8,036 nucleotides of DNA, from positions 1-8,036 of the forward strand of contig JAJONP010000090.1 of the NCBI GenBank assembly GCA_021323555.1, in the 5' to 3' direction. The DNA is from Gammaproteobacteria bacterium. Lineage in GTDB: Bacteria > Pseudomonadota > Gammaproteobacteria > DSM-16500. Positions 2,942-8,036 of this stretch are shown piece after piece. The position numbers and the translations under genes are program-made. Below the pieces are notes generated by a model, which worked only from the letters and a program-made list of their open reading frames with translations, had not been told where the DNA came from and made no database searches. Position 1 is the first letter of the stretch, and the number at the start of each line of letters is the position of its first letter.

Positions 2942-4285
2942 ATGAATACAACAGAAATACAAGCATTAGATTTGAAATATAACTGGCATCCTGGCTCTCA
3001 AATGAAAGATTATGAGCAATTTAAGCCGTTGGTTATAAGACGTGCTTATGGGAGTTATATTGAGCTAGACAATGGCAGAAAAGTAATTGATGCAATTTCT
3101 AGTTGGTGGTGTAAGTCTTTAGGTCATAACCATCCAGTCTTGAGAAAAAACTTAATGAGACAGCTTGAAAAATTCGAGCATGTTATATTTGCTAATACCA
3201 CTCATGAAACCATCGCTAAATTATCCCAAACTTTAGGCAATCTGATGCCAACGCTAAATAAGGTATTTTACACCGGTGACGGCTCTTGTGCTGTCGAAGT
3301 TGCTATGAAGATGAGTTTACATTTTAGAGTATTGCAGGGAGATCGTGGAAAAACGAAATTCATTGCACTAAAGAATGGTTATCATGGCGAAACTATAGGA
3401 GCGCTGAGTGTCAGTGATATGGGGTTATACCGTGACCCTTATGCTTCTATACTATTTGAGCCGATATTGATAGAACCTCTTTACGTGTCAGGGAAAAGCG
3501 ATCCACAGTGGGATAATGCAAAGGACTACTGGAAAACTGTTGAAAATACCCTAGAGGTTCATAAAGATTCTGTCACTGCGATTATATGTGAACCAATATT
3601 GCAAGGTGCAGGTGGTATGAGAATATACAGTCAGGATTTTTTATACAAACTAGGAACCTTTGCAAAAGCAAATAATATTCACTTGATTGCAGATGAAATA
3701 ATGACAGGTATCGGGCGCACCGGAAAAATGTTAGCATGCGAGCATGCTGCTGTAATTCCTCATTTTATTTGTCTTTCCAAAGGATTGACCTCTGGCTGGA
3801 TACCTTTTAGCGCCGTTTTAACCACACAAGAGATATATCAAGCTTTCTATGATGATTATGAAAAAAGTAAGTCTTTTTTGCATTCTCACACTTATTCAGG
3901 CAACGCATTAGGAGCCAGTTTGGCACTTTCTACTTTAGAGATTATTAAAAAGGAAGATCTTTGTGGTAGAGCTAATAGGCTGCAAACCCTTATGCAGAAG
4001 AATTTACAGGATATTGCCGAAGTAACGGGTAGCCTTACCAATATTAGAGGTATCGGAGGTGTAGTTGCGGCTGATCTGATTAATCAAGAAAATATACCTA
4101 GATTAGGATATAAATTATCTCAAGAAGCAGTAAAATTAGGTGCATTATTAAGGCCATTGGGCAATACGATTTACTGGATGCCGCCACTCAATATAGCAGA
4201 AGAAACGCTTGAAGAACTAAAAGATAAAACACTTCAGGCTATTCTTAATACGCAAAAGCGTATATCAAATAAAATATCTTTCTGA
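2942..4285 (+). CDS. bioA: Adenosylmethionine-8-amino-7-oxononanoate aminotransferase BioA
   Basis: A 447-residue class III, PLP-dependent aminotransferase. It converts 8-amino-7-oxononanoate to 7,8-diaminononanoate using S-adenosylmethionine as the unusual amino donor. Visible landmarks: W15HPGSQM near the start; SSWWCKSLGHNHP at 53-65, with the tryptophans typical of the BioA substrate site; GDGSCAVEVAMKM at 112-124 for PLP phosphate; YHGET at 147-151; the PLP aspartate in ADEIMTGIGRTG (Asp251); Schiff-base Lys280 in LSKGLTSGW; HSHTYSGN at 314-321; and LLRPLGN near the C-terminus with the carboxylate-binding arginine. It is transcribed away from bioB. The leader is very short: only an AGG (2932-2934) lies 7 nt before the ATG, within the BirA-type operator. 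A plausible -10 (TATTAA, 2924-2929) would place the start almost at the ATG. Two terminator-like hairpins follow the stop. Confidence 0.97.
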   Translation: MNTTEIQALDLKYNWHPGSQMKDYEQFKPLVIRRAYGSYIELDNGRKVIDAISSWWCKSLGHNHPVLRKNLMRQLEKFEHVIFANTTHETIAKLSQTLGNLMPTLNKVFYTGDGSCAVEVAMKMSLHFRVLQGDRGKTKFIALKNGYHGETIGALSVSDMGLYRDPYASILFEPILIEPLYVSGKSDPQWDNAKDYWKTVENTLEVHKDSVTAIICEPILQGAGGMRIYSQDFLYKLGTFAKANNIHLIADEIMTGIGRTGKMLACEHAAVIPHFICLSKGLTSGWIPFSAVLTTQEIYQAFYDDYEKSKSFLHSHTYSGNALGASLALSTLEIIKKEDLCGRANRLQTLMQKNLQDIAEVTGSLTNIRGIGGVVAADLINQENIPRLGYKLSQEAVKLGALLRPLGNTIYWMPPLNIAEETLEELKDKTLQAILNTQKRISNKISF

Positions 4286-4290
4286 TTTAG

Positions 4291-4356
4291 AGAAGGTCGA
4301 ATCAAAAAAACAGCACATTAACCTGCTTTTTATTTACTTTGTTTGACCCTTCTTTT
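4291..4356 (+). terminator. Imperfect terminator-like hairpin after bioA
   Basis: The sequence from 4291 (AGAAGGTCGAATCAAA) can pair imperfectly with 4338-4353 (TTTGTTTGACCCTTCT), allowing small bulges, and is followed by TTT. The T-run is short and the loop long, so this alone would be a weak intrinsic terminator; it starts only 5 nt after the bioA stop. Confidence 0.4.
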
Positions 4357-4371
4357 AAATAAAAAATCATC

Positions 4372-4394
4372 CTGTTTTTGCAACAGATTTTTTT
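4372..4394 (+). terminator. Intrinsic terminator candidate downstream of bioA
   Basis: CTGTT (4372-4376), a 5-nt loop and AACAG (4382-4386) form a small hairpin followed by A and seven Ts (4388-4394). The stem is short, but the T-run is good. It lies about 90 nt after the bioA stop and would end rightward transcription before the tRNA fragment. Confidence 0.5.
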
Positions 4395-4486
4395 ATTAAC
4401 AAGGATTTCCCCCAGGAATTTTTCTATTTTTTTTCTAAATTTTTCTAGGAAGCTTTTTATATACCCGTATTTGACTTTAAAAGCAC

Positions 4487-4504
4487 AAAAATCCTGATGA
4501 TTTT
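4487..4504 (-). terminator. Terminator-like hairpin downstream of the tRNA-Leu fragment
   Basis: On the minus strand AAAATC, a 5-nt loop (ATCAG) and GATTTTT form an AT-rich hairpin ending in a T-run, 10 nt past the CCA end of the tRNA-Leu fragment. It is probably the original terminator of the chromosomal tRNA-Leu gene, left behind with its 3' end when the island inserted. The stem is weak, hence the moderate confidence. Confidence 0.4.
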
Positions 4505-4514
4505 CTAAAAGATT

Positions 4515-4570
4515 TGGTGCCCGGGGCCGGAATCGAACCGGCATGGGATTTAAGTCACGAGGGATTTTAA
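4515..4570 (-). pseudogene. 3' fragment of tRNA-Leu(UAA), probable island attachment site
   Basis: Read on the minus strand, this starts in the anticodon loop (TTAAAATCCCT, containing anticodon TAA), continues through a long class II variable region, a perfect T-arm (GCCGG, TTCGATT, CCGGC) and the 3' acceptor strand CCCGGGC, then discriminator A and encoded CCA (complement of 4515-4517). An intact tRNA-Leu(UAA) would have a matching anticodon stem and a GCCCGGG 5' acceptor strand to the right. Instead the match stops at 4570 and no 5' half is found in the next 100 bases. Class II variable arm, A discriminator and UAA anticodon together point to leucine rather than serine. Tyrosine recombinases commonly integrate at this position, leaving the displaced 3' half at the far end of the element. 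The intact copy should lie at the other end of the island, to the right. Confidence 0.85.
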
Positions 4571-4651
4571 GACTGTAGCCGTAAATCGTATAAAATGCTA
4601 AATTTCTAGGAGAATTTTAAAATCGCTGTTCATTTCTTGGGCTACAGATTA

Positions 4652-4697
4652 ATACATTCAGATACTTATAAAAACAAAAGGATACATTTAGATATTT
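4652..4697. repeat. Pair of 16-bp direct repeats near the attachment site
   Basis: ATACATTCAGATACTT (4652-4667) and ATACATTTAGATATTT (4682-4697) agree at 14 of 16 positions, with a 30-bp period, close to three helical turns. Lying 80-130 bp inside the att core, they resemble in position and size the arm-type binding sites of tyrosine integrases. Function is inferred only. Confidence 0.5.
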
Positions 4698-4714
4698 CTA
4701 ACAACATTCACACG

Positions 4715-4734
4715 CTTTAGCGTACTTTAGCATA
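4715..4734. repeat. Tandem 10-bp repeat CTTTAGCRTA
   Basis: CTTTAGCGTA (4715-4724) is followed directly by CTTTAGCATA (4725-4734), matching at 9 of 10 positions. The period is one helical turn, so a protein could bind both copies on one DNA face. It may belong to the same att-region set as the preceding repeats. Confidence 0.45.
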
Positions 4735-4744
4735 TTTTCACGAC

Positions 4745-4765
4745 AGCAAAACCTGTATTTTTGCT
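4745..4765. terminator. Perfect 7-bp hairpin, possible bidirectional terminator
   Basis: AGCAAAA (4745-4751) and TTTTGCT (4759-4765) pair perfectly around a 7-nt loop. On the plus strand it is followed by CTTTATTTT, a loose T-rich tail. It could stop transcription entering or leaving the island, or be a structural element of the att region. Which is not decided by the sequence. Confidence 0.35.
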
Positions 4766-4778
4766 CTTTATTTTGCCA

Positions 4779-4851
4779 AATCTTTTAATCAGCTGATAGA
4801 CAGAATTTCTTAGGAAAAATTACCATTATGCGTTGTTCTTAGAAAAGATTA
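4779..4851. repeat. Nested inverted and direct repeats upstream of the SIR2 gene
   Basis: AATCTTTT (4779-4786) and AAAAGATT (4843-4850) form a perfect 8-bp inverted repeat 56 bp apart. Inside this span TTCTTAGGAAAAATTA (4807-4822) recurs as TTCTTAGAAAAGATTA (4836-4851), nearly identical except for a one-base shift. These could be recombinase or regulator sites; AT-rich chance similarity is possible. Confidence 0.35.
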
Positions 4852-4940
4852 TTTGAGAGCGGAAGGGGGTGGAGCGAGGGGGAAGTAAAGTGTAAAGCTA
4901 GGGAAATTCTGCTAAAATGCCGGTTATTTTAATCTTACCG

Positions 4941-4949
4941 TGCTATTAT
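4941..4949 (+). promoter_or_regulatory. Extended -10 promoter candidate for the SIR2 gene
   Basis: TGCTATTAT contains the extended -10 TG, one base, then TATTAT, five of six matches to the -10 consensus. No good -35 lies 16-18 bp upstream, as is common with extended -10 promoters. Transcription would begin near 4956, leaving a leader of about 55 nt before the TTG start at 5013. Confidence 0.45.
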
Positions 4950-5000
4950 CATTTCGAAGAATAATTCTATAAGCCCATCCTAAATCCAAAAGTTCTTAAC

Positions 5001-5005
5001 AGGAG
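5001..5005 (+). promoter_or_regulatory. Shine-Dalgarno site that fixes the TTG start of the SIR2 gene
   Basis: AGGAG at 5001-5005 is 7 nt before TTG at 5013, ideal spacing. The intervening ATG at 5008-5010 is only 2 nt away and in another frame. The next in-frame ATG, codon 49, would remove the NAD-binding GSGVS motif, so TTG is the likely start. Confidence 0.7.
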
Positions 5006-5012
5006 TAATGTA

Positions 5013-8000
5013 TTGCGCTTTTATAAAGATGGTCCAGACATACCAGATGAGCTTTTGTATGATCATGAAGAAGAGAATGTCATTTTCTTTCCTGGTTCAG
5101 GCGTTTCTAGGGCCTATGCAAATCTTCCAAATTTTTCTGAGTTAGCACGCAAAGTGATGGATGCTCTTGGAGCAAGGAAAGATAGCGAGACCAGGCAGCT
5201 TTTAGAAAATCAAATTGTTTCAACAGATTATATTTTTGACAAGCTAGAGGAAGACTTTGACAATAGACATATAAATTCTTCTGTGGCTAGAAATCTCCAG
5301 CCAAATCCAAACCCTGATTTATCAGCGCACAAAACGATATTAAAACTATCCAGTTTTCCCGGGAAAGGGACTCGCTTAATAACAACTAATTTTGATTCAT
5401 TATTCGAATCCTGTAATAGAAAGCTTCCTTCAATTACTCATTCTAATCTACCAAATGTCGAATTTTCTGATAGTAATTGGGGTATAATACATTTGCATGG
5501 AAAAGTTAATTCAGATTATTCGGGATCAGCTAATGATGGTTTCGTGCTTTCAGCTTCACAATTTGGTTCAGCATATCTTACAAGTGGACTAACAAGAGAT
5601 TTCGTTAGGGAAATTTTTAATAGATTTACTGTAGTCTTTGTTGGGTATTCAGCAGAAGATCCCCCAATAAATTATTTATTAAGAGGGCTACGGTATGAGA
5701 ATAAATGCGAAAGCAAAATATACGCTTTTGTTGAGACTGGGTTAAATAATAAATCAATAAAGCAATGGGAATCGAAAGGAATTAAAGTAATAACTTATGA
5801 AAATGTGAATAAAACACATGCTGTCTTGTGGAAAACATTAGAAGCATGGGCAGTTAGAGCAAGTAACCCTTATAGATGGAGAAATAAAGTTCTCTCTAAG
5901 GCGCGTAAAGGGCCTACTAAAATGGAACCTCATGAAAGAGGAATGGTTGCTCATATAGTTAAATCTGCGTCTGGGGCTAAAGCATTTGCACAGATGGATC
6001 CCCCTTTACCAGCGGAGTGGCTAGGTGTATTTGATCAACGTATAAGGCGCCAACAACCAGAGTTCTATGCTTTAAATGATGAATATTTCTTACCAGAAGA
6101 AACTAAACAAGATGAAAACTTGCATCTTCCGGCTTGGGATGCTTTTTCGTTTCCTTTTAAGGAATTAGAAGCTAATGAGGAGGCTTCAATACGATATATT
6201 GAACCTAATTACTCTCTTCCTATTCCGAGAAGGTTACATTCTTTAGCAGTTTGGATAGGAAAAATTTCAGACCAAAAATTTACTTTATGGTGGGCGAGCC
6301 AACAATCGGGCTTACATTTGAATATAATAAAAAACGTCCAATTAAATTTTAGGAAGATGCCTGATTCTCTAAGAAAACAATGGAATGCGGTATTCGAATC
6401 CCAACCATATCGTGTTGATAAATATGGTATGTATAATTTAAAAAATCGTATAGATGCACAGGGCTGGGACGATTTTATTGTTCGTGAATATGCCATTCTT
6501 TCTTCACCGTTTTTAAAAGCAAGGCCTACTATTAATAGTGTCCCGAAAAGTGATGGTTTTAAAAAAAATAAGGTTGATGTTATAAAAGCTGAAGTTAAGT
6601 ATCTGGAAGGTATTGAAGAAATAAAAATTCCTAGTGAACAACTGGTTAAAATTATAGGTATTTTACGTCTAAATTTAGAGAAATACATTGATATGGAGAA
6701 AGAATTTTCAGGAAAAGAGCCTTATTTACGCAATATTCAAGGAAACGAAGACTCAGAAGAAAGAATCATTTATGGAGGGTATTTTTCACAGCGTGTTTAC
6801 TATTTTCTAAAATTGTTCAAAGCCTTGATCAGTTTTGACACAGAGCAAGCAAAAAAAGAATATAAAATATGGAGAAATAAAGACTATATATTTGGGAGAA
6901 TTCGCATGATAGCAGCTAGTTTTGAAGGTGCTGCAACTGAAAATGGATTTGTGAATGAGGTTTTTTCTTTGAAGGAAGAAGATTTTTGGTCTCCTGAATG
7001 TCAGCCGGATATTTTAATCTGCTTAAAAAGAAAATGGGATAAGCTGTCTCTGAGTAATCGCAAAAATATTGAAGAAAAAATATTAAAAGGTCCACCGAAA
7101 CTAACAAAATCTTCAAAATTGCATTCAAAAATATCAGCTTATATGCAATTGAATATGTTTCATTATCTTCAAAAACACAATTGTAATTTGAGTTTTGATC
7201 TAAAAGAATTAACTGAAAATCTTAATAAGATAGTGCCAGAGTGGAGGCCTGAAGATGTAGAAAGTGCTGTTGAAAGTGCCAACCCACGTGGAGGATTTAT
7301 TAGGGTTAATACGGATTATGAGGCATTAAAAATTTTACCCTTATCAGAAATTATAAAGAATGCAAAAATAACTCATGAAATTCGTTTAAATGACCTGGTT
7401 GAACATAATCCATTTTTGGGGCTTTGCGATGCTGAACCATTACAAGCATTAGAAGCCTTAACTTTGGATCTAAAAAGTGGGAATTTTTCGATAGAGTGTT
7501 GGGAAATTTATCTATTAAGCATAGGTAAAAAAAGCAATAATTTGCAGCTGAAAATTTCTACAGCTTACGTAATTAATCAAATCCAAAATAAGCAATTTGC
7601 AGATATTATTTGGTCTGCTTCAGACTGGTTTGAGAATATACGCGCTGAATTAAGAGATAAAAACATAGAAATATTCAACGCATTATGGAATAAATTTATT
7701 GATACTCTAATGCTTTATAAGGATTGTGCTCGTTCAGTTTCAATAAGGCAAAAATCAGAAAAAATTGACTGGGTAGCTGAATCGATTAGTTCTGTACCTG
7801 GAAAGCTAGCAGAATTACATATAATTGAGTGGCAAAATAAAAAATTGGAAGCAAATAGTGGATTTCCGAAATGTTGGCTAAAGAAAACAGAGCAATTGTT
7901 GAATCTGCCAAACGATGCTAGCCGTTATGCAATAACTATTCTTTCTCTTCATTTGTCAGCGTTATACTATGTTGATCCTGTATGGGCTGAAGAAAGACTA

Positions 8001-8036
8001 CTTAAAATAATACAAGATGATTATCAATCGAAGGAC
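5013..8036 (+). CDS. dsr1: Dsr1-type defence-associated sirtuin (SIR2-domain NADase), C-terminus beyond window
   Basis: The frame from the TTG at 5013 is open for all 1008 codons to the window edge, so the protein is C-terminally cut by the window. Residues about 20-280 form a bacterial SIR2 domain: NAD-loop GSGVS (28-32), LITTNFD (122-128) with the catalytic-type Asn126, HLHG (160-163) with His162, and GYSAEDPP (211-218). The expected NADase residues are all present. A block PHERGMVAHIV at 306-316 and PPLPAEWLGVFD at 330-341 follows, as I recall from Dsr1-type proteins that carry a DUF4020-like C-terminus. The remaining 650 or so visible residues are mostly helical and tryptophan-rich, with no nuclease, ATPase or membrane segment that I can recognise; in this family the C-terminal part senses phage proteins. 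Known relatives hydrolyse NAD+ on infection and stop the host cell. There is no zinc-binding cysteine set of the deacetylase sirtuins. The gene is the first cargo of a probable tRNA-Leu island. The SIR2 call is firm; the Dsr1 subtype is inferred from memory of the family. Confidence 0.88.
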   Translation, partial: MRFYKDGPDIPDELLYDHEEENVIFFPGSGVSRAYANLPNFSELARKVMDALGARKDSETRQLLENQIVSTDYIFDKLEEDFDNRHINSSVARNLQPNPNPDLSAHKTILKLSSFPGKGTRLITTNFDSLFESCNRKLPSITHSNLPNVEFSDSNWGIIHLHGKVNSDYSGSANDGFVLSASQFGSAYLTSGLTRDFVREIFNRFTVVFVGYSAEDPPINYLLRGLRYENKCESKIYAFVETGLNNKSIKQWESKGIKVITYENVNKTHAVLWKTLEAWAVRASNPYRWRNKVLSKARKGPTKMEPHERGMVAHIVKSASGAKAFAQMDPPLPAEWLGVFDQRIRRQQPEFYALNDEYFLPEETKQDENLHLPAWDAFSFPFKELEANEEASIRYIEPNYSLPIPRRLHSLAVWIGKISDQKFTLWWASQQSGLHLNIIKNVQLNFRKMPDSLRKQWNAVFESQPYRVDKYGMYNLKNRIDAQGWDDFIVREYAILSSPFLKARPTINSVPKSDGFKKNKVDVIKAEVKYLEGIEEIKIPSEQLVKIIGILRLNLEKYIDMEKEFSGKEPYLRNIQGNEDSEERIIYGGYFSQRVYYFLKLFKALISFDTEQAKKEYKIWRNKDYIFGRIRMIAASFEGAATENGFVNEVFSLKEEDFWSPECQPDILICLKRKWDKLSLSNRKNIEEKILKGPPKLTKSSKLHSKISAYMQLNMFHYLQKHNCNLSFDLKELTENLNKIVPEWRPEDVESAVESANPRGGFIRVNTDYEALKILPLSEIIKNAKITHEIRLNDLVEHNPFLGLCDAEPLQALEALTLDLKSGNFSIECWEIYLLSIGKKSNNLQLKISTAYVINQIQNKQFADIIWSASDWFENIRAELRDKNIEIFNALWNKFIDTLMLYKDCARSVSIRQKSEKIDWVAESISSVPGKLAELHIIEWQNKKLEANSGFPKCWLKKTEQLLNLPNDASRYAITILSLHLSALYYVDPVWAEERLLKIIQDDYQSKD

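Follow-up and report, generated by a model that had tools for sequence, protein, structure and literature searches.

A tRNA-Leu(UAA) 3' half beside bioA as the probable attR end of an integrated element with a Dsr1-like SIR2 gene

The stretch of DNA analysed here (the window, 8036 bases) joins a biotin locus on its left to a long open reading frame on its right, and a short piece of a tRNA gene lies between them. In the protein search the SIR2 protein of the window was listed on one contig of 8036 bases, and the window is taken as that whole contig. The features needed for the argument are as follows.

2942 to 4285, plus strand: bioA, the core gene on the chromosomal side, 74% and 71% identical to its counterparts in two Legionellales MAGs
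4289 to 4355, plus strand: hairpin at the 3' end of bioA (z -3.06, a fold equalled by 3 of 200 shuffles)
4515 to 4571, minus strand: displaced 3' half of tRNA-Leu(UAA), from anticodon-loop base 32 to CCA, the proposed attR core
4572 to 5012, strand not given: presumed element-side flank, with a 20-nt direct repeat and without a 5' tRNA half
5013 to 8036, plus strand: gene of a Dsr1-like SIR2 protein, 1008 codons present and cut by the contig end, the proposed island cargo

Both bioA and bioB exceed their NCBIfam cutoffs, and the next two frames of the biotin locus are bioF-like and bioH-like, with scores below theirs. Within bioB, positions 2504-2841 of the coding strand gave a match to the Rfam family Ricks_sRNA10 (42.8 bits, against a gathering score of 97), which probably reflects the conserved bioB coding sequence and not an sRNA.

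The tRNA segment comprises 57 nt, and its minus strand matches intact tRNA-Leu(UAA) genes from C32, the first base of the loop CTTAAAA, to CCA. In the alignments C32 is preceded by a T in the window and by an A in the intact genes displayed. Homology therefore ends at base 32, a recognised anticodon-loop subsite by the break criterion of Islander, and the segment is the 3' part of a tRNA gene terminating at CCA, as fragments are defined there. The search covered the order to which G001 belongs, taken as Legionellales, with 143 genomes; the half was matched in 136 of them at E ≤ 0.001, the top match reaching E = 4.7e-19 at 93% identity. No complete tRNA was found in the window by ARAGORN. The best ungapped match to the 32-nt 5'-half consensus was 18/32, which is the level of shuffled sequence (mean 17.2 and maximum 19 over 30 shuffles), and the 5' half is therefore absent. 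The T arm and CCA are unbroken, and the variable arm contains an internal U-C mispair when the alignment is read by eye. The initial annotation had described a minus-strand 3' half of tRNA-Leu(UAA) running from the anticodon loop to CCA and lacking its 5' half, and the alignments, ARAGORN and the shuffle-level match bear this out; the segment is real, and its length was put at 56 bp, one short of the 57 nt measured. On sequence comparison, its identity as a displaced 3' half of tRNA-Leu(UAA) is confirmed.

The same search was used to look for further halves of this kind in the order. Among the matches listed, where in some genomes only six candidates were scored, there was no displaced-half-like second match, and a partial second match in G119 covers query bases 14-57. 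This indicates that the site is no common hotspot in the order. The presence of the same fragment in all relatives, which the initial annotation had named as speaking against an island, was likewise not seen, as no listed second match starts in query bases 1-13.

Gene order around bioA and around tRNA-Leu(UAA) has also been compared. According to ARAGORN, no tRNA follows bioA in the nearest relatives, L001 (1.0 kb past bioA) and L002 (3.8 kb past bioA). The empty site predicted earlier, with a complete tRNA-Leu after bioA, was hence not found in these two relatives within those distances. In the genome of L001 (G001), tRNA-Leu(UAA) is followed by convergent gpsA. The tRNA-Leu(UAA) gene stands behind tRNA-Gly and tRNA-Cys in most genomes looked at, its neighbours vary between genomes, and in G002 a further tRNA-Gly lies beyond it. 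A survey by eye of the listed rows for 32 genomes, those in which a single contig carries both the best bioA match and tRNA-Leu(UAA), gave a smallest gap of about 273 kb (G128). The exception is G012, where a class-III aminotransferase of 33% identity, not the best match of that genome, lies about 2 kb from tRNA-Leu(UAA). As bioA is not beside tRNA-Leu(UAA) in the nearest relatives, a half beside bioA needs a lineage-specific gene order.

A different arrangement was observed in two Coxiella endosymbionts of Ornithodoros (L005, L006), where tRNA-Cys and tRNA-Leu(UAA) follow bioA after about 1.5-1.7 kb on the same strand (L005:11305-13115). There tRNA-Leu(UAA) points away from bioA, whereas the half of the window is convergent with bioA.

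The right flank contains 441 bases without a nameable gene, after which the SIR2 frame begins. Within it, a direct repeat is formed by 4652-4671 and 4682-4701 with 17 of 20 positions matching, a level reached by 0 of 60 first-order Markov samples. These copies could be candidate arm-type sites of an integrase. When positions 4560-4760 were compared with the 143 genomes, weak short matches appeared in 32 of them (E ≤ 0.1), none longer than about 60 bases and the best at E 6.5e-4 over 29 bases; these are taken as AT-rich chance.

A terminator-like hairpin on the CCA side of the half, claimed at first, was not recovered. For the 75 nt downstream of CCA, folding did not exceed the shuffle level (z +0.78), and a scan of 4200-5100 gave no terminator-like match there; its sole match was at 4710-4725 on the minus strand, in the right flank (shuffle mean 0.6). 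The hairpin at 4289-4355 is the significant one in the spacer, and it belongs to bioA, not to the tRNA.

These observations bear on the view that the half is a decayed relic, left by an old insertion or rearrangement whose element has since been lost or replaced, so that the SIR2 gene would not belong to the original element. The lack of an integrase in view, the U-C mispair seen by eye, the lack of a significant hairpin after CCA and the separation of bioA from tRNA-Leu(UAA) in the nearest relatives would all suit such a history. Nevertheless, the half shares up to 93% identity with intact copies from other species, its T arm and CCA have stayed unbroken and the 20-nt direct repeat is present in the flank; a relic is accordingly considered unlikely.

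The protein encoded from 5013 onwards has a SIR2-type N-terminal domain (PF13289, 67.8 bits) and matched the PADLOC Dsr1 model at 5.6e-71. Like Dsr1 as defined by NCBIfam (NF041818), it carries SIR2 at its N terminus, and its full-length relatives, with about 1270 aa and up to 46% identity, are similar to Dsr1 in length. In contrast, the cut protein scored 285.6 bits against an equivalog cutoff of 1400, and five longer relatives (1247-1281 aa) reached 285-426 bits. Because all six lie far below that cutoff, the protein is designated Dsr1-like rather than Dsr1. According to a review, DSR1 blocks phage replication via SIR2 NADase activity (PMC10952713, in the part of the text available). The gene of the window is thus predicted to be a probable NAD+-depleting phage-defence gene.

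The distribution of its relatives was also surveyed. Only 6 of the 143 genomes of the order have one, at 27-35% identity over part of the protein, and no tRNA was found in these six short SIR2-like loci. Plasmid records with relatives number 59, of which 22 are predicted to be conjugative, 4 mobilizable and 33 non-mobilizable, and comparison of the window itself with plasmids by near-identity gave no match. In viral contigs, a pattern search of a kind that suits close relatives gave two matches, neither of them a relative. Base composition does not separate the two sides of the half, with a GC content of 34.1% in the SIR2 gene and 30.6-39.4% in the bio genes.

Neither an integrase nor an intact tRNA-Leu was found in the 8036 bases of the window, which end inside the SIR2 gene. 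Five of its eight frames were tested against families and none is an integrase; the other three overlap other genes or the tRNA half. Pairs of an intact gene and a displaced half occur in other genomes, and three informative ones are described here.

The first lies in G006, the genome of the bioA locus L008, and was found without imposing a break point. The intact tRNA-Leu(UAA) occupies 11659-11745 on the minus strand, and an identical 3' half, with the same break base and preceded by T, lies 3.4 kb away on the same strand. The interval contains an AbiEi-like gene, an AbiEii gene and a transposase-like frame just under its Pfam cutoff. None of the three frames tested in this interval is a tyrosine integrase, so this analogue is itself incomplete.

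Halves with this break were next sought by pattern in 369 genomes of the class, of which only three matched (G237, G176 and G445, the last on a 4-kb contig). In G237, one strand carries the intact tRNA-Leu(UAA) at 244044-244130 and, 39.3 kb from it, an identical 3' half beginning at 283447; about 15 bp past the intact tRNA comes the 3' end of a PF00589 integrase gene. In G176, 93.8 kb separate the intact gene at 61702-61790 from a half beginning at 155620, and a PF00589 integrase is encoded about 370 bp to the 5' side of that half. The two copies in G176 differ in their variable arms and need not stem from one event.

Genes of the AbiE system were observed beside displaced tRNA-Leu(UAA) halves in two of these genomes, between the intact copy and the half in G006 (L123:8675-10352) and on the CCA side of the half in G176 (L138:1564-2412). 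The AbiEii gene of the latter is outside the interval from the intact gene to the half.

Besides genomes of the class, 2.9 million IMG/VR contigs were searched, and nine contain the displaced-half pattern. A PF00589 integrase lies beside or overlaps the half in five of the nine (L140, L142, L143, L144 and L145), and none was found in the two frames tested of L147. The shared break in the viral matches and in those from the 369 genomes is partly a matter of construction, as the pattern required it; the pair in G006 is exempt. An exact pattern made from part of the window's half had 0 matches in viral contigs, and comparison of the half with phages in a distant mode gave partial matches in nine records, two of them annotated as tRNA-Leu.

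Two of the nine viral contigs lead to a different origin for such a half. In L141 and L146 a group I intron (Rfam, 63.0 and 56.1 bits) interrupts a tRNA-Leu(UAA) gene, of which the half forms the 3' exon (L141:4476-4800 and L146:12697-13030). The intron stands directly before base 32, and the 5' exon is visible by eye beyond it. L146 was drawn from a 239-kb contig rich in tRNAs. L139 resembles these two by eye, and Rfam reported no intron in its 178 upstream bases. Intron-split exons therefore share their boundary with integrase-displaced halves, and the same base boundary can arise in two ways. On these grounds, the segment of the window might come from a tRNA-Leu(UAA) gene split in the anticodon loop, as its 3' exon, given that the same 3' half and break base occur in both contigs. 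Nevertheless, a search of the window with Rfam gave no group I intron at E ≤ 1, the 5' exon is absent from the window (18/32) and the right side is filled by a gene of at least 1008 codons. With neither intron nor 5' exon, this explanation was rejected for the window and is regarded as extremely improbable.

The reading best in keeping with these data is that the 57-nt half is the attR of a tyrosine-integrase element lying to its right, with the SIR2 gene as cargo, to which a probability of roughly 0.84 is assigned. A tyrosine integrase would have recombined the attP of the element with the anticodon-loop region of tRNA-Leu(UAA). A copy of the 3' half carried by the element would then have rebuilt an intact tRNA at the far end, on the right, while the original 3' half would have been displaced to the left and stayed beside chromosomal DNA, here bioA. 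As the tRNA is on the minus strand, the element should extend rightwards beyond 4571 and end on the far side with the intact tRNA. The body of the element would start at 4572, and the Dsr1-like SIR2 gene would be placed near its attR end; the right end and the integrase are expected beyond 8036. The geometry proposed in the initial annotation, with the intact tRNA-Leu(UAA) and a nearby integrase at the distal end, is probably correct and has counterparts elsewhere: the same half and break point recur in G237, G006 and G176 (with differing variable arms), and five of the nine viral contigs have an adjacent tyrosine integrase.

Mobile DNA on both sides of the half was also considered, in which case the half would be the attP core inside an element or would lie between tandem elements. 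Tandem islands are described in the part of the Islander report available (PMC4383910), and G237, as would be seen in a tandem array, has a second integrase frame (281 aa, with the beginning of the central-domain profile missing) on the CCA side of its half, about 225 bp from where the half starts. In the window, by contrast, the left side is a biotin locus in which bioA is divergent from bioB and bioF, the same order as in L001 and L002 (frames read by eye), and this arrangement of mobile DNA is very unlikely. It is practically negligible that the contig is an assembly chimera joined via the repeated tRNA segment. The window does appear to be a single unbinned contig, and the 57-nt repeat would occur twice in a genome of this kind. 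Nevertheless, 57 nt would be short for a mis-join, the right flank is no 5' half of a tRNA, and even a mis-joined contig would need a real displaced half in the sample.

As an attR with the element on its right, the half of the window would be an ordinary further case of a well-known kind, and the principle is textbook. In the available part of the Islander report, a 3' fragment is given for 3760 of 3919 islands and an anticodon-centred site for 2083 (PMC4383910). The tRNA-gene islands presented there resemble the window in their 3' tRNA fragment, their break in the anticodon loop and their cargo 5' of the fragment. Islander also requires an intact tRNA and an integrase, both of which would fall outside the present contig. 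Integration into a tRNA-Leu gene is likewise found in the prophage AH2/phiO18P of Aeromonas, where 50-bp direct repeats serve as attL and attR (PMC3835674). Unlike the window, that case is complete with both ends known, and the isoacceptor is not stated in the portion of the paper available. An island of Vibrio metoecus shares with the window a defence cargo at tRNA-Leu, in its case type III-A CRISPR-Cas, and an island-free strain is known (PMC6360697). As far as the accessible text goes, that island differs in its size of 26 kb, in an integrase being seen and in its defence system and host. A literature search on the combination of defense island, tRNA-Leu, prophage and SIR2 found no papers joining them in the collection searched.

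A broader proposal may be put forward as a doubtful generalization. In it, tRNA-Leu(UAA), usually at the end of a Gly-Cys-Leu cluster, would be a docking site for unrelated integrases, which would repeatedly deliver single-locus phage-defence cargo (Dsr1-like here, AbiE in G006), set at the attR end and so remote from the integrase. Group I introns in large phages would also enter this tRNA at that very base.

For the organism, apparently an uncultured Legionellales relative, the preferred reading places a probable island boundary with single-base precision and marks out a probable defence gene as mobile cargo. Its main use is in annotation and as a precise prediction for longer assemblies, in which the intact tRNA-Leu(UAA) would be expected at the far right end of the element.
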